From Isoetes taiwanensis (taxonomy: Eukaryota > Streptophyta > Lycopodiopsida > Isoetales > Isoetaceae): 64,000 nucleotides of DNA. Positions 15,301-64,000 of the stretch are shown here, in pieces. A model generated the notes under the pieces. It saw only the letters and a list, made by a program, of their open reading frames with translations, had not been told where the DNA came from and did no database searches. The stretch covers positions 1,048,579-1,112,578 of the forward strand of contig JAJEKV010000162.1 of assembly GCA_021234155.1 (NCBI GenBank), given 5' to 3'. Position 1 is the first letter of the stretch. Each line of letters starts with the position of its first letter. Both the position numbers and the translations under genes were made by a program.

Positions 15301-16093
15301 GAATGAGTTTTCAAAGTGTATGTCATGGCTACAACAAGGATAAAGTCTATTGTTGATAACATTGAAGCAGATAAAGTGAAATTATCTAAAGAGGATGTTG
15401 AACATCTAAGCCATATATGAGCACTTATGATGTGATGAAGGTAATTATTGAGATGGAGGACAAGACTTTTCCTTATCATTTTCCATAAGTCCACACCGAA
15501 AATGCTCTCTCATTCTAAAGGTTTCTGTTGAGATTGTGCAGTGGCAGACACCTACAGCATAGCATCTTCCCTAGCATTTGGAGTAGCTCGCTATATGAAG
15601 ATAGCAGAAATTATAGCATCAATCAAGATCAACTTTTGTATGTTAATGAGGTCTGCCTTAAGAAAGCACTTAATAGAAAGATTCGTGCTTGATTCATGAA
15701 TCTCACGAGCTGATATTGGGCAGTGTTGTCCCTATGTGAGCATGTTGTGGGCAGTGTTATCCCTATGTGAGCATGTTGTAGGCCATGGACAATGACCGGA
15801 GGAAGTACATACACCATTGGAGTTAAGCAGGGCCAAATACATCTTTACAAGACTTAAAATAGAAAGTCTATCTACCATCACATGTCATATATATTTTGTA
15901 CAAGGTATTATGGACGTTAACTGACATGTCTAACATATGTCTCATCAAAAGCTTTGGCTGCTCAAGATTGTGAGACATGCTGGTTCTCTAGAACAGTTAA
16001 GATGTTTAATACTCTTGACATATCAATTGATTAAGTCCCTTCATTTTAATACAACTTGGCAGTACTTAACAAACTAACCAGACAACAAATGAA
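15301..16093. other. No gene seen; 31-bp duplication
   Basis: The block GGGCAGTGTTRTCCCTATGT and 11 further bases is present twice in tandem (15718-15748 and 15749-15779) with one difference. Otherwise only short ORFs are present. Confidence 0.55.
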
Positions 16094-17100
16094 TTGTCTT
16101 ATACATCGACGCCTCGCCGACTTCAACATCTACATAGAGTCATGAATCTCCTGCCTCTTCTCCTCCTTCACGGTGTACAAGCCATATCTGCTAATGATGT
16201 ACTAGATATGCCAATTGCTCATCATCTCGAAGTCCATAACCACAAGGGTGCTCCACAAGGATATCCAGCACTACAAAGCAATACACCTCAACTCCACAAA
16301 GCAAGATTGCATGCGCCACATCGCCACATCTTCAAGCACAAAATCCCCAAGCACATCCCAAACACCCTTGAATACCACAAGAAGCACAAACACCTTGCAA
16401 TGGTCAACAAGTGGGGCGTTCCAACATTCTTCCTCACCCTTAGTGCAGACGAGGTAAGCAAGACAAGGTGGCAAGAGATCGTCCACATCGAAGACATCAT
16501 CGGGAAAATACACCAAGATCTCACATGGATAGATTGCCCAATTAAATGCGCCACTCTATTCCACAAACGCCTTGAGTCATTCCTCGCAAAGCACGTACTC
16601 AGAGGAGGCAAGTTGTTGGAACAAGTGGAACATTACGTGATCAGATATGATACAAAGCAGGCACTCGTTGAACTCACACACATCTTGTGGGTGAACGAAA
16701 CAGACATAGAGAGGATCACAAACGAGATCGTCGCCTTCATACCAAGCAGAACAGGGGCATAAGACGAGGATAAGTTATGTGGCCTAGTCGATCACAAGCA
16801 GATTCACACTTGCAGGCCCTCCTGCAAACTAGAAGACCATGTGATATCGTGCAGATACATGTTCCCATTCCCACCGCAGCCAAACTGCGAGGCACAATTC
16901 GACAATAAGAAACAGATGTAGTTGTACTTCAGACCAACAGAAGAGCACTAAATGTCGTGCCCTACCATCCAATAATCCTCCTCCTTTGGGGAGTGCACAT
17001 AAACATCCAGAGAATCACGCATGGAAGTTGGACATACTACGCCCTTAAGTACGCAAAAAAGCTCAAAAAAAGCTCGAACCACATGGCCATCTCAACCTAA
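16094..17100 (+). pseudogene. Helitron Rep (HUH) domain, degraded
   Basis: The frame 16094-16762 encodes a Helitron-like N-terminal domain: WGVPTFFLTLSADE, then CATLFHKRLESFLAKHVL, then a counterpart of the HUH motif that reads ELTHILWVNE, so the first catalytic histidine is lost. After a stop the sense continues with LVDHKQIHTCRPSC and a cysteine/proline-rich CRYMFPFPPQPNC. Near 16975-17085 LLLWGVHINIQRITHG and YYALKYAKK match the Helitron tyrosine motif, with two Tyr four residues apart. In living elements this protein nicks and joins single-stranded DNA for rolling-circle transposition. Several in-frame stops show it is a relic. Confidence 0.85.
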
Positions 17101-17890
17101 TTGGACAAGACATCCTAAGGCTTGGCCTTCCAGACGTAGACGAAATGAAGGCAAGGCTGTTGTTCTCAATGTTGCTCTCTAAACCGATCTCACCCACTGA
17201 AGCCGCGCTAGCATGCCTCCAAGACCAACTATATGGAGATCAAATGGCGTCCACTCCTCCCCACCGTCAACCAAAGAGCGCCTCCTCACACGCGACGCCA
17301 TGTCAATGCTCCACCCCATTGACCACTATGCAGCAAGGCCCCCCAACATGGACGACGTAACATACAAGCAATTCTAGCGCTCATACAGCATCGAACCAGC
17401 CACGTTAACAAAGCAAGCCACATCCAACACGGCTCCAAGCCATAAGATCATCCCCACAAACCAACCAGTATGCTTCACCGATTACCATTCCGTCTACCAT
17501 ACCGAAGAATTCTGCTACAACATACTCCTTGACTAAATCCCCTTCCGAGCGGAAGCCAAACTCCTCTCCCCAGACAACCACGCACAGTCCTACGGCCTGG
17601 AATGCCAGCTCTGAGAGCTACTATCAACCAAAGATGGCATCCTCGCCCACGTGCAAGCTTAAGCAGAATACCACCTCCTTGAGAACAAGAAGCAACAATA
17701 GATCGTGGATGCAATACTCCAGAACATCCCATCGCTCAACACACAGCATCACGATTCATTAAACACCGACTAAGAAGAGCAGCAACCAAATGCAGACGAC
17801 CAGCTAAGCGCAAACAGACACACCGGCCAAACATACCAGTCAACCCGCCCATCAATCCCACACTGTCACCCGAGCAAGCACGCGTCTAGA
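17101..17890 (+). pseudogene. Helitron RepHel linker region, heavily degraded
   Basis: Between the tyrosine motif and the helicase all frames are broken, but composition stays C-rich like the flanking RepHel DNA. Short segments are compatible with the region joining Rep and helicase. No separate gene is seen. Confidence 0.45.
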
Positions 17891-19430
17891 AGCAATCATA
17901 ACAGAGGCGCATGTATTTCACGTCATATCAGGCACGCCAGGATCGGAAAAGACCTATCTGACGAAACGAATGATACGGTACTTCATCAGTAACGGGAAGC
18001 AGTTCTGCCTACAGCAACCATCGGAATGGCTGCAACAAAGTTACGGAGAGGAGCGACCACTATGCACTGTCAATTCACAATCCCAGGTAAACATGCAAAC
18101 CCAAAACGCAAGCCGCAACTCCCCAACTATACTAGCGCACGACCCTCTTCATTATGCAGTAAAAAAACAATGGCCAAACAAAATCAGGCACATGAACGCA
18201 AGGCACCAACAGATCCTAGTGTTCCAAGTCCTCATCATCGACGAGATGCCGATGCATACGTTCACCAATCTCAACATGATACTCAGGCAAATAGAAAAAG
18301 TGAGGAAGCAACCATCAAGCGAGGCAAACATAGGCGATAATCCTCGTCGGCGACCATGCTCAACTCCCTCCCATATGCAAGCACAGAAAGAGAGGCGCCG
18401 ACAACGTGTGCAAGCTGTGCACACTCATCCCCTCGCCAACAGCCCCTACTTCATGCAAGCAAAGAAGTGGCCACCTGACGCAATCCATCGGGCGCTCCTT
18501 CGATCCAGAGTACGTAACCTTCCTCAACGCCATAAGAGAAAGGCCGCCGACCCAAAGCGAGCTCGTGCAAACGCTGGGAGCCCACATCATCGACAAAGAA
18601 GAAGCGATCGGCAAGATCGATCGTAACACCACGGTGATGTGCACCCACCACGAGGATGTCTGACATTACAACGCGACGGCCATGATCAAAATGTTCCTCA
18701 GCGACTGTGTCCACGAGGTACGAGTCCACACCAAGGGTATATGCCTTAGCTTTGAGGAGGGGGATTTTTGCAAACTCCAAGCATAGCACCAGCACCCTCC
18801 TGATGAATCTTTTCTTATTTTTATCCCTTTTTTTAGAAGTTTGTTTGGGCTGAAATTTTATATTCTAAGGCCAAACATGTGTGTGCTAGAGAAAAATATC
18901 AAAAAAAATATTAATTTTTTTCTAAAATACAAAGAAAATAGTTTTTAAAGCATAGCACAAGCACCATGTGTCGCCGACACAAAAAGTGTCCCCTACCCCC
19001 AACACAACAGCTAGATACCTTACATCGACGTGGGATGCAGAGTCATAATCATTACCAACATAAACATACTGGGAGAAATAGTCAACGGAACGGCAGGAAC
19101 AGTCACATACATATAGACCGACGAGCAAACAGGAGATGCGAAAGGCATCACGGTCCACATCGACAACTCTCTCCAACACATGGACATCAAGCGAACGTTA
19201 GTCGAGTACAGGCATCAAGGACCCAAGACCATCTTCAAGAGAACGTTCCCACTAGCGCTGGCGTACGCCATGACAAGGCACAAGAGCCAAAGCTCTACGA
19301 TAAAAGGCAACGCAATCATGGTCGTGAGAAGGGCGTTCATGCCTGCGCTATTGTAAGCGATGATACGCGAATAAACGACAGGAAACAAGTATTGATCGTG
19401 TCGCGAAGCAACCAAACAAAACGCTGCTGA
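17891..19430 (+). pseudogene. Helitron Pif1-type helicase domain, degraded
   Basis: Near 17920-18000 a frame reads VISGTPGSEKTYLTKR, a Walker A with Glu in place of the usual Gly before Lys-Thr. Near 18215-18260 VLIIDEMPMHTF is the Walker B/DEAD-like motif. Downstream (18490-18660) is YVTFLNAIRERPPTQSEL. Near 19020-19370 another frame carries GCRVIIITNINILGEIVNG, then FPLALAYAMTRHKSQS and VRRAFMPALL, the C-terminal motifs of Pif1-family helicases of Helitrons. Motifs occur in the right order but in different frames with many stops. A low-complexity A/T insertion lies at 18820-18960. Confidence 0.85.
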
Positions 19431-60144: not shown

Positions 60145-60640
60145 GGGCCCGAAGGGCCCAAATTTTTTTTTAATATAACAATCAACACAACTACCATTAA
60201 CATTATTAACGCAAACCATTGCATTTAACACATTTAAATTAAAATCCCCCTTAAACCCCCTTTGGTTTGGATGCATATTCACACGAGGGGTTACGTAGGG
60301 CAGCGAGAGCTCCAAAAATATATTTACAATACATGTACAAAATTAACACCATTAAGTACATTCTCTCAAACCTTATAGTATTTTGCAAACTTTAATATAC
60401 AGTATACAAAAACTTGTACATGCATACCCCACAAACGAGGTTCGCTATGTACGGTCCAGATCTTGGAATAAAAGGCAAATATGCCCATCCGACAGCTCTC
60501 GTTGCCCGGAGTAACCCCCCGTGTGAATATGCACCCAAACCAAAGGGGGTTTAAGGGGGATTTTAATTTAAATGTGTTAAATGCAATGGTTTGTGTTAAT
60601 AATGTTAATGGTAGTTGTGTGTTGAACAGGCCCAACTTGT
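60145..60640. mobile_element. Foldback/MITE-like element with about 130-bp inverted arms
   Basis: The arm 60182-60311 is repeated in inverse complement at 60494-60626 with only a few differences (for example GAGGGGTTACG against CGGAGTAACCCC). A unique 182-bp centre holds no ORF of note. Outer parts also correspond: GGGCC words occur at 60145-60159 and GGCCC at 60629-60633. Flanking target duplications are not clear. RNA crossing it in either direction would form a long hairpin. No transposase is present. Confidence 0.85.

Positions 60641-61171: not shown

Positions 61172-61175
<4 letters not shown>

Positions 61176-61214
<39 letters not shown>
61176..61214. repeat. (GA)n microsatellite
   Basis: About 39 bp of uninterrupted GA at the left edge of a longer purine tract. 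Confidence 0.95.
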
Positions 61215-61218
<4 letters not shown>

Positions 61219-61605
61219 GAGGGAAAGGGAAGAAAGGGCCCCAAGAAAAGGGGAAGGGCGAGGAAAGGCTGAAAGGGCAAGGGAAAGGAAAACGAAAAAG
61301 AAAACAGTAGGCAGAAAGGGAGAAAGGGAAGGGAAAAAAGGCATATGAAAAGGAAAAAGAGAAAGGAAAAAGGAGGGAGAACGAGAATGGTGAAAAGGGG
61401 AAGAGGGTGGGAAAAGAAGGAAAAGTGGCACATGAAAAAGTTGGAGAAAAGGGAAAAGGAAAGGGAAAGAAGGAAAATGAAGAGGGAAAGGAAAGGGAAA
61501 AACGGGAAGGGTGGGGAAATGACAAAAATGAAAGGGAAAAAGTTCATCAGAAAAAAAGGAAAAGGAAAAAAGGGGAAGGGAAAAGGGAAGGTAAGGGGCG
61601 GGGAA
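61215..61605. repeat. Polypurine tract (about 390 bp)
   Basis: Nearly all A and G on the plus strand, in GGGAAAAGG-type words, strongly similar in texture to 46.4-47.2 and 54.0-54.2 kb. Both-strand open frames are composition artefacts. Confidence 0.95.
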
Positions 61606-62171
61606 ATGATTTCCTATTGGTGGGAAATGGATTTGCATCAGTGTAGTGGCAAGTGCACTTCAAGTCCTTTGAATTCAAATCATGCTTTAGGCTAACTTTT
61701 GCCTTTTCAAATTTTGCTTAGGCATTAGTGCATCATTATCTCTCTAACTTTATCTTTAGAGAGAGAATATGATTTGGGACCTTGGAAAAGGCCATTTTGA
61801 TGGAATTTTTTGGCATTTTCTTGTTGAAGGTGGATGAATGATGAAGTGTGTGATATTTTGACTAGGAAAAATATTTTGGCCAACTTTGGGATTTGGAGCA
61901 TGGGAATGGCATATGAGGAATGAAAAATGGGATGTGTCAAAGGTAGAGTCATGACAATAGGGCCTAGACAAGTATGAATCATGCCAAATAAACATGGAAA
62001 TAGCCAAGTACCATTATAACTTGAGGGGTCTTCCAAACTTTGACTTCGAGTGTTCAAGAATATTCCATTTGCACCAAACTTCAGCTTCGCTGTCAATGGC
62101 ATGCATTTGATGATCCTATGCATAGTTCCCTTCAATGGATGCAAGCCAACAAAGACAGTCTGTTAGTGAGC
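61606..62171. other. No recognised gene
   Basis: Two long minus-strand frames (61725-62144 and 61756-62007) overlap, but neither shows a domain. Probably transposon-derived. Confidence 0.35.
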
Positions 62172-62250
62172 TTGGGGAATTAAACCCCAACGCAATGCCA
62201 ATGCTCATCCGAGCATAAGGGAGATCCCATCAGAGGGGGTCTCCCTTATG
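62172..62250. repeat. Two adjacent hairpins
   Basis: TTGGGG-AATTAAA-CCCCAA (62172-62190) is followed by a perfect 11-bp stem, CATAAGGGAGA (62214-62224) with TCTCCCTTATG (62240-62250) and a 15-base loop. They lie downstream of the HUH-Rep pseudogene on its strand and could mark an element end. A rho-type bacterial terminator is not expected here. Confidence 0.6.
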
Positions 62251-62445
62251 CCTAGGGGCCAAAGCCCTATGAAAGTCTGCAGATATTAGTAACGAAGTGC
62301 AATCAACAAAGCTTGTACAACACACAGCATCAAAGGACAGAACATCACATATCATAAGCTTAGAAAATGTACATGTGGCATGGGCGCCATGCCCATGAAA
62401 CTGCACAAACAACGACATTGCAAACAAGATCAAGAAGAAGAAGGC

Positions 62446-62597
62446 CTAATTCAAGGGCTCTCCAGATGCAGCCCGCCTGATCACAGCATCAAGCTGGCGG
62501 ATTTCCTGCGTCAACAAGGCCCTAGCGAGGCTCATGTGAGATCTCAAAGCATATAACTCAAATAATGGAGCACCAAGCTGCTCCAGGCAACACTATA
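62446..62597 (-). other. Possible C-terminal coding piece
   Basis: A 50-codon frame reads LEQLGAPLFELYALRSHMSL and then AVIRRAASGEPLN before a stop. Its helical composition suggests a true coding end, possibly of the Rep-like gene upstream on the same strand, but the link is not shown. Confidence 0.25.
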
Positions 62598-62956
62598 GAT
62601 CGATGAATCGATGGCCACATAAAAACCAGTCAACTGCCTCCTCAGGATCCTAAGGGAAGCAGTTATTCGATGGGCCTCCGTCCCAACCTGGATAATACTC
62701 GTTATAAATTCCATGCAGTAAACAGCTGCTCCCCCTCAGGAGGATAAACCTAAGGATCAGGATGAGAATCATCAATCCTAGAGCTTATCAAAGAGGGATC
62801 CAAGCTCACGACGGGATGGCTCGTCTCCTCAGCAGGATTCCCATCAGTCTCCATTTCTACCCTGCAACAAACTCTCACTACCACAAACACATGCTGAAAG
62901 AAAGCAAAACATAGATAAAACTGAAGCTGTACATGTAACAACACACACACAATAAC

Positions 62957-64000
62957 TCAGCCAACCGCCATGGTGTGATCCCCAGTGTGGATGGGGATGT
63001 AATCCACACCATGATCAGGGATTTCAAGATCAGGGCTGAATGATGGATCATGAATATCCTGAAAATTACAATCCATCTCATCAGATGGCACAGAATCATC
63101 CCAATATCGGTGACGGCCAGGCCCATTCCGTTCAACAGGCATATAACCTGCAGGTAAACCAAAGAGAATAGTTCTAACATCAGATGGCATACAATGAGCG
63201 GGATTCAACAGAACCTTCCAAGCAGCACGGACTCTATGCTCGTTCACATGGGCAATGTTAGATGAAATTATCCAACTGCTGCTCAAAGTATATTTTCCAC
63301 TTCTCTGCATCCTCCAAATTGTGAACGTCAAACTAGGAGTCAACCTATGACCACCATGCTAAAAAACAAAGTGCACTGCCTTGTTCAGAAGGTTTCTGTT
63401 ATCCAACACACACAGGCCATTTGTGTCCCCAGCACCCCATCTTACATACAAATCTTTTCCCTTCTCAACCATCATTTCAGATATATTATAATAGAATATG
63501 ATATATTGTGCAGGTGGCAGGAGTAATGCATCTTACCTACGTCTTTCATGCAGTATCCCAGCATGCCCTCGAAGCAGTGCAACCTATTATTCTTGAGGGC
63601 CTTGCAGACTAAGATAACGGCAGCTAGCTTAGAGGGCCAATTACACTCCCTCTTGATAGCATCGTTCAGGGCCTTAGGAGTCTTGTAACAGGCTCTAAGC
63701 ACGACCTGCACATGGAGGTGATCAGCAGGAGACCCCCTCTCCAGGGCAACTGCGCCAGCAAGGCATCTCCTATTGCGCAGAACGAAGAAAGGGCATCAAA
63801 GAAACTACGGGGAACATCTTGACCAGACAAGGCCAATTTCATGGAAACATCTATTGCATCCCAGCTCTGTGCAAGGTCAGGCATGTCAGGAGTGGGCATG
63901 GCAGAGGTTTCAGTCTGTACAGAACTTGATTCCATTGGCATCGAACAAGGGATGGGCCCATGGGCAGCAACAACCTTGCCCTTTCTGGATGCTCTTCTCA
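62957..64000 (-). pseudogene. HUH-type Rep endonuclease-like gene, broken, open to right edge
   Basis: Not a Helitron protein. Frame 1, from beyond the window edge to about 63775, includes VPRSFFDALSSFCA. Frame 2 continues RRCLAGAVALERGSPADHLH then VQVVLRACYKT; HLH (codons within 63706-63723) fits an HUH metal site. About 70 residues on comes GMLGYCMKDVGKMHY, where Tyr and Lys of YCMK fit the catalytic motif of Rep nucleases, then HLHNIS. After a frame change near 63475 follow DLYVRWGAGDTNGL and LDNRNLLNKAVHF, a TAG at 63359-63361, then WRMQRSGKYTLSSSWI and HRVRAAWKVLLNP to a stop at 62957. HUH enzymes nick single-stranded DNA through the Tyr. Two frame changes and a stop suggest a relic, though introns could explain some (GTAAGA follows GYCMKDV). 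Replitron-like or virus-derived Rep are both possible. Confidence 0.6.

Follow-up and report, generated by a model that had tools for sequence, protein, structure and literature searches.

An inactivated Replitron-type element and its relatives in the genome of the lycophyte Isoetes taiwanensis

Replitrons are DNA transposons of eukaryotes that encode an HUH endonuclease, and they are defined by a single catalytic tyrosine and by the absence of a helicase; the primary paper on them is reportedly that of Craig in PNAS (2023). The RepHel protein of Helitrons, in contrast, combines two tyrosines with a PIF1-like helicase. Pfam represents Replitrons by the families PF21859 and PF21860. To our knowledge, Replitron transposition has not been examined experimentally. 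The sections of PMC10741241 that treat these elements list green algae, liverworts, mosses, lycophytes and ferns as Replitron hosts and give an element size of 0.9-4 kb, short direct terminal repeats of 5-11 bp without inverted repeats, and target-site duplications of 2-8 bp. HUH together with Y-x2-K is stated as a motif rule for viral HUH enzymes in the relevant part of PMC11253617.

The locus described here lies at the right edge of a stretch of 64,000 nucleotides of Isoetes taiwanensis DNA, which as a whole is called the window. The elements to which it belongs share with Replitrons an HUH domain, a single tyrosine, no detected helicase, a size within 0.9-4 kb, short direct terminal repeats and a lycophyte host. 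They differ in a Replitron_C score below the cut-off, in 3' ends that stop at various points of a 17-bp tandem unit, and in readable insertion sites that show either no target-site duplication or one of no more than about 5 bp.

The copy in the window

A broken Rep-like protein is encoded on the minus strand at window positions 63998-62957, where it is split into three pieces in three frames. By tblastn with intact Reps, the pieces at 63998-63774, 63774-63487 and 63505-62957 are 55%, 84% and 85% identical to an intact relative. The parts of the copy are:

62083..64000, minus strand: in-window part of the degraded Replitron copy, 91.0% identical over 2380 columns to the full-length copy L010
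63777..63998, minus strand: N-terminal stretch of the Rep, frame -3, placed by tblastn with intact Reps and by the L009 sequence
63487..63774, minus strand: HUH nuclease core of the Rep, frame -2, placed by the Pfam match to Replitron_HUH and by tblastn
63712..63720, minus strand: HUH motif His-Leu-His (H-L-H), from the translation, in the context ADHLHVQ
63544..63555, minus strand: catalytic motif Tyr-Cys-Met-Lys (Y-x2-K) with a single tyrosine, from the translation
62957..63505, minus strand: C-terminal stretch of the Rep, frame -1, placed by translation, tblastn and a Replitron_C match below the cut-off
62083..62956, minus strand: part of the element 3' of the Rep, about 375 bp shorter than in the full copies with which it was compared

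The C-terminal stretch is interrupted by an in-frame stop at 63359-63361, and the final stop codon occupies 62957-62959, position 62957 being the lower limit of the feature. With its three frames and one in-frame stop, the window copy is an inactivated relic. An earlier, sequence-only reading had reported HUH and Y-x2-K motifs followed by several tail pieces at the right edge, and this anatomy was confirmed: the motifs lie on the minus strand at 63720-63712 and 63555-63544, and the pieces HLHNIS, LDNRNLLNKAV, RMQRSGKY and AAWKVLLNP are located in the frames 63795-63472, 63532-63359 and 63358-62957. The same reading had put about 70 residues between the H and Y motifs, which has to be corrected to 55 residues in the window piece, a distance that is identical in an intact copy.

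The upper limit of the feature is merely the window edge. Homology extends about 445 bp further (position 3024 of L009 corresponds to window position 64445), and the start codon of the Rep lies just outside, beyond the right edge. Compared with the termini of its relatives, neither true terminus of the window copy is recognisable, the 5' terminus being absent and the 3' end falling short by about 375 bp. At least 47 DNA matches are present in the genome (40 of 692 candidates were scored), and together with a Pfam E-value of 6.9e-15 they place the feature beyond chance.

The window contains several other features. A Helitron relic at about 16.1 kb, as the earlier reading had recognised, matches Helitron_like_N above the cut-off on the plus strand at 16070-16762 (39.4 bits; cut-off 28.9), and downstream, at 17808-18626 on the same strand, AAA_19 matches above and PIF1 below the cut-off. 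An inverted repeat of 127 nt (60185-60311 and 60494-60620), with arms that are 94% complementary and separated by 182 nt, resembles a foldback or MITE-type element. A GA-dinucleotide run at about 61174-61215 is followed by a long purine-rich stretch at 61215-61620.

Assignment of the Rep and alternative origins

The HUH core of the window copy matches Pfam Replitron_HUH with 56 bits (E 6.9e-15; cut-off 28.5). Against this cut-off, 71.5-78.5 bits are reached by four relatives with an intact Rep elsewhere in the genome. Replitron_C (PF21860) aligns C-terminal to the HUH domain, with 16.5 bits for the last piece of the window copy and 12.9-16.4 bits for the four intact relatives, all below the cut-off of 27. 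When these four proteins were searched against Pfam at E-values up to 10, no other family exceeded its cut-off, a single sub-cut-off match occurred in one protein, and no helicase family was matched in their frames of 396-465 aa. The earlier proposal of a second HUH relic that is of Replitron type and not a Helitron is therefore upheld by the Replitron_HUH scores of the window piece and its relatives; a profile match to an unrelated family, which had been considered as a possible outcome, did not appear above cut-off.

The columns of H-L-H and Y-C-M-K are invariant in six aligned Reps; the motif tyrosine is single, and the whole GYCMKD block is invariant in all six. Both histidines, the tyrosine and the lysine are retained in 20 of 20 loci (L009-L028); these loci were picked by similarity, and the count is consequently not an unbiased sample. 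Structure prediction for the 107-residue HUH piece of the window alone, using a single-sequence model, gave a mean pLDDT of 40, too low for use, and a profile search of the Protein Data Bank for solved structures returned no match at E-values up to 1.

Based on the HUH domain, the single tyrosine, the lack of a helicase match, the size, the terminal repeats and the host, we assign the feature to the Replitrons: it is very probably an inactivated copy of such a helicase-free, single-tyrosine HUH transposon. Two Replitron features are not clearly seen: the match to the C-terminal domain stays below its cut-off, and target sites are not regularly duplicated. Such elements are already known from spore-bearing plants, which makes this copy an ordinary one.

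Three other origins have to be weighed against this assignment. The Rep could stem from an endogenised single-stranded DNA virus of the CRESS type, as the earlier reading had suggested, and viral Reps do share the single-tyrosine HUH and Y-x2-K signature, as stated in the part of PMC11253617 on viral enzymes. Such a source is highly improbable: Replitron_HUH alone exceeds a cut-off, neither a viral Rep family nor a helicase domain, including that of superfamily 3, was matched in the four intact relatives (frames of 396-465 aa, Pfam E-values up to 10), and in the viral contigs searched, a pattern matched 35 stretches, of which none encodes a relative. Hundreds of loci with common termini and short derivatives also argue against a viral origin. 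The prokaryote contigs searched contained 147 pattern-matched stretches, none of them a relative.

A divergent Helitron or another HUH transposon would fit the presence of a Helitron relic at 16.1 kb in the same window, and Helitrons resemble the elements here in their HUH nuclease and, according to the Helitron passages of PMC10741241, in a hairpin near the 3' end and in the lack of a target duplication, such a duplication being at least not consistent here. Yet one motif tyrosine instead of two, no helicase match, a short element of about 2.2-2.8 kb, the Replitron_HUH match and the direct terminal repeats make this reading very hard to sustain. Finally, purifying selection between intact Reps would also be expected for a domesticated Rep, i.e., one that descends from a Replitron and now serves as a host gene; this appears the least probable of the three, because the window copy is split into three frames with a stop, and its relatives are dispersed, some of their sites having element-free versions at other genome positions. 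A transposable Replitron that has since been inactivated thus remains our preferred reading.

Ends, derivatives and insertion sites

The relatives fall into three groups: A, which includes the window copy, B (L024-L027) and C (L028). Group B elements measure 2.25-2.44 kb and group A elements about 2.7-2.8 kb, and short copies of 1.04-1.52 kb are also present. Groups A and B start with ATAATGTKTCCGMAAT, which occurs 135 times compared with two times for a control. Group B copies terminate in a tandem of the 17-bp unit ACACCCNAAACGATAAT, and the core of this 3' unit, AAACGATAATACACCC, is found 92 times and its control not at all. The 5' end ATAATGTGTCCGAAAT and the 3' sequence ATAATACACCCGAAAC of group B agree at 11 of 16 positions, with an exact match over the first 5 bp and five differences that are all transitions; this similarity fits the short direct terminal repeats reported for Replitrons in the corresponding passages of PMC10741241. 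The two ends of group A have only ATAAT in common. Inverted terminal repeats were judged by eye to be absent. In L028, a comparable start is recognised when up to five mismatches are allowed, and its tail unit, likewise comparable, is present twice.

Pairing of 100 listed 5' ends (of 135) with all 92 3' ends gave 15 pairs in the correct order and strand within 15 kb, compared with four in the wrong order or strand. Their lengths cluster at 2.2-2.4 kb (four pairs) and 1.04-1.15 kb (five pairs), the remaining pairs spanning 1.4, 1.5, 4.1, 4.4, 4.9 and 11.8 kb. The five copies of 1.04-1.15 kb, judged by length and ends read alone, are probably non-autonomous derivatives:

G000 C908:3156361-3157397, short copy with both group B ends
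G000 C919:6690115-6691260, short copy with both group B ends
G000 C932:476444-477553, short copy with both group B ends
G000 C1039:11662425-11663486, short copy with both group B ends
G000 C1047:4213579-4214654, short copy with both group B ends

Hairpins were sought in 110 bases at each of 16 3' ends, and the stems were compared with those of 500 base shuffles. A perfect stem of at least 7 bp is present in nine of the 16 ends, eight of which have a GCATATGC-type palindrome in common. Stems of 10-11 bp (L024, L025, L027, L032, L044 and L048) were reached in 0 or 1 of 500 shuffles. L030 and L042 have stems of 7-8 bp, which 10 and 11 of the shuffles reached, respectively; L040 has a different stem of 7 bp (9 of 500). 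The GCCGTT/AACGGC stem of 6 bp in L016, L018 and L028 is not significant by itself, since 49-63 of 500 shuffles reach an equal stem. Other short stems in L010 and L020 were often reached by shuffles (161 and 57 of 500), and the 110 bases of L014 and L015 contain no stem of 5 bp or more. A significant hairpin is absent from seven of the 16 ends, and group B is the only group in which the hairpin has good support.

At the element ends as set, none of 11 elements is flanked by an exact duplication of at least 2 bp, and none by one of at least 4 bp when shifts of 0-3 nt are allowed. Since the tails vary and may reach about 12 nt, this test could miss a duplication, and it was superseded by a comparison with empty sites. 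The joined flanks of 20 elements were used as queries and up to 40 candidates were scored per search, so that some empty sites may have been overlooked; within these, a match spanning the junction was obtained for seven elements and not for the other 13. Some sites have element-free counterparts at other places in the genome. Relative to the empty counterparts, the insertions of L029 and L064 look precise. That of L025 is probably precise as well, provided that a short repeat was present only once in the target; if not, several bases were lost. L060 has a duplication of 3-5 bp. Compared with the closest empty copies, L076 apparently lacks 4-7 bp of target and L066 at least 9 bp, but the empty sites are paralogous repeat copies rather than the same locus, so that losses of this size may reflect older divergence. 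The site of L041 is unreadable, since the target repeat varies in length among the eight empty copies retrieved, and it was not counted as evidence for target loss. Target-site duplication is not consistent among these elements, and where sites are readable it does not exceed about 5 bp, if present at all.

In all nine elements compared, the next tail unit continues for 2-12 bases (up to one mismatch) after the last ACACCC before the flank begins, although continuations as short as the 2 bases of L066 and the 4 bases of L074 could be due to chance. The 3' end is thus not located at one fixed base. In L064 and L076, a few bases at the junction are common to tail and target, which is suggestive only. 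Ends that stop at variable points within a short tandem repeat, without a consistent target-site duplication, are a noteworthy property of these elements.

Conserved HUH-Y1 residues, a fixed 5' end, a repeated 3' end and the group B hairpin form the observed basis for a possible mechanism. By analogy with known HUH enzymes, the Rep would nick a single strand next to the ATAAT repeat of the 5' end, remain covalently attached through its tyrosine and transfer the displaced strand. It might then halt, or make a second cut, at the related repeat of the 3' end, close to the hairpin, while the host supplies helicase and polymerase for replication. The window copy would have inserted and decayed afterwards. 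Imprecise termination, or joining where short stretches match, may account for the variable 3' end. A specific mode of integration, with a fixed 5' cut at ATAAT, variable 3' joining inside the tandem repeat, perhaps where a few target bases match, and no regular target-site duplication, is a speculative and rather unlikely proposal. If true, insertion with one fixed and one flexible end would set these elements apart from other eukaryotic HUH transposons in the way they integrate.

Copy number and spread in the genome

The genome searched comprises 1,658,258,908 bases in 1110 contigs. Replitron_HUH exceeded its cut-off in each of the 150 loci scored from 2165 first-look candidates, i.e., in at least 150 loci, and in none of 14 control genomes. 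A degenerate tyrosine-motif pattern, which also admits Cys, His and Arg at the tyrosine position, matched 791 loci, compared with four for its reversed control; among 100 listed loci, this position is occupied by Tyr in 97, Cys in two and His in one. The expectation that a copy in a plant nucleus would be unusual was wrong for Isoetes taiwanensis, since hundreds of loci are present and lycophyte Replitrons are already listed in PMC10741241. This vascular-plant genome harbours Replitron loci in the hundreds.

Unbroken Rep frames exist at other loci of the genome. The dN/dS ratios (NG86) between Reps are 0.145, 0.102, 0.079 and 0.119 in four of 15 pairs, at dS values of 0.43-1.13, of which the largest is near saturation; dS was not computable in the other 11 pairs. 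Two blocks shared by L024 and L025 show about 96% identity. The low dN/dS, the conserved catalytic residues and this closely related pair suggest that the spread was driven by functional Reps, and part of it is more recent than the rest. The Replitrons of Isoetes taiwanensis thus include both unbroken Rep frames and short derivatives, and the 96%-identical pair, together with empty sites that can be read, makes this genome suited to the study of Replitron transposition. Four additional Replitron_HUH loci (G000 C1056:19694288, C1031:150398, C919:6177037 and C1078:19254559) lie in open frames of 516-568 aa, which exceed the length of the frames studied here and possibly contain extra domains.
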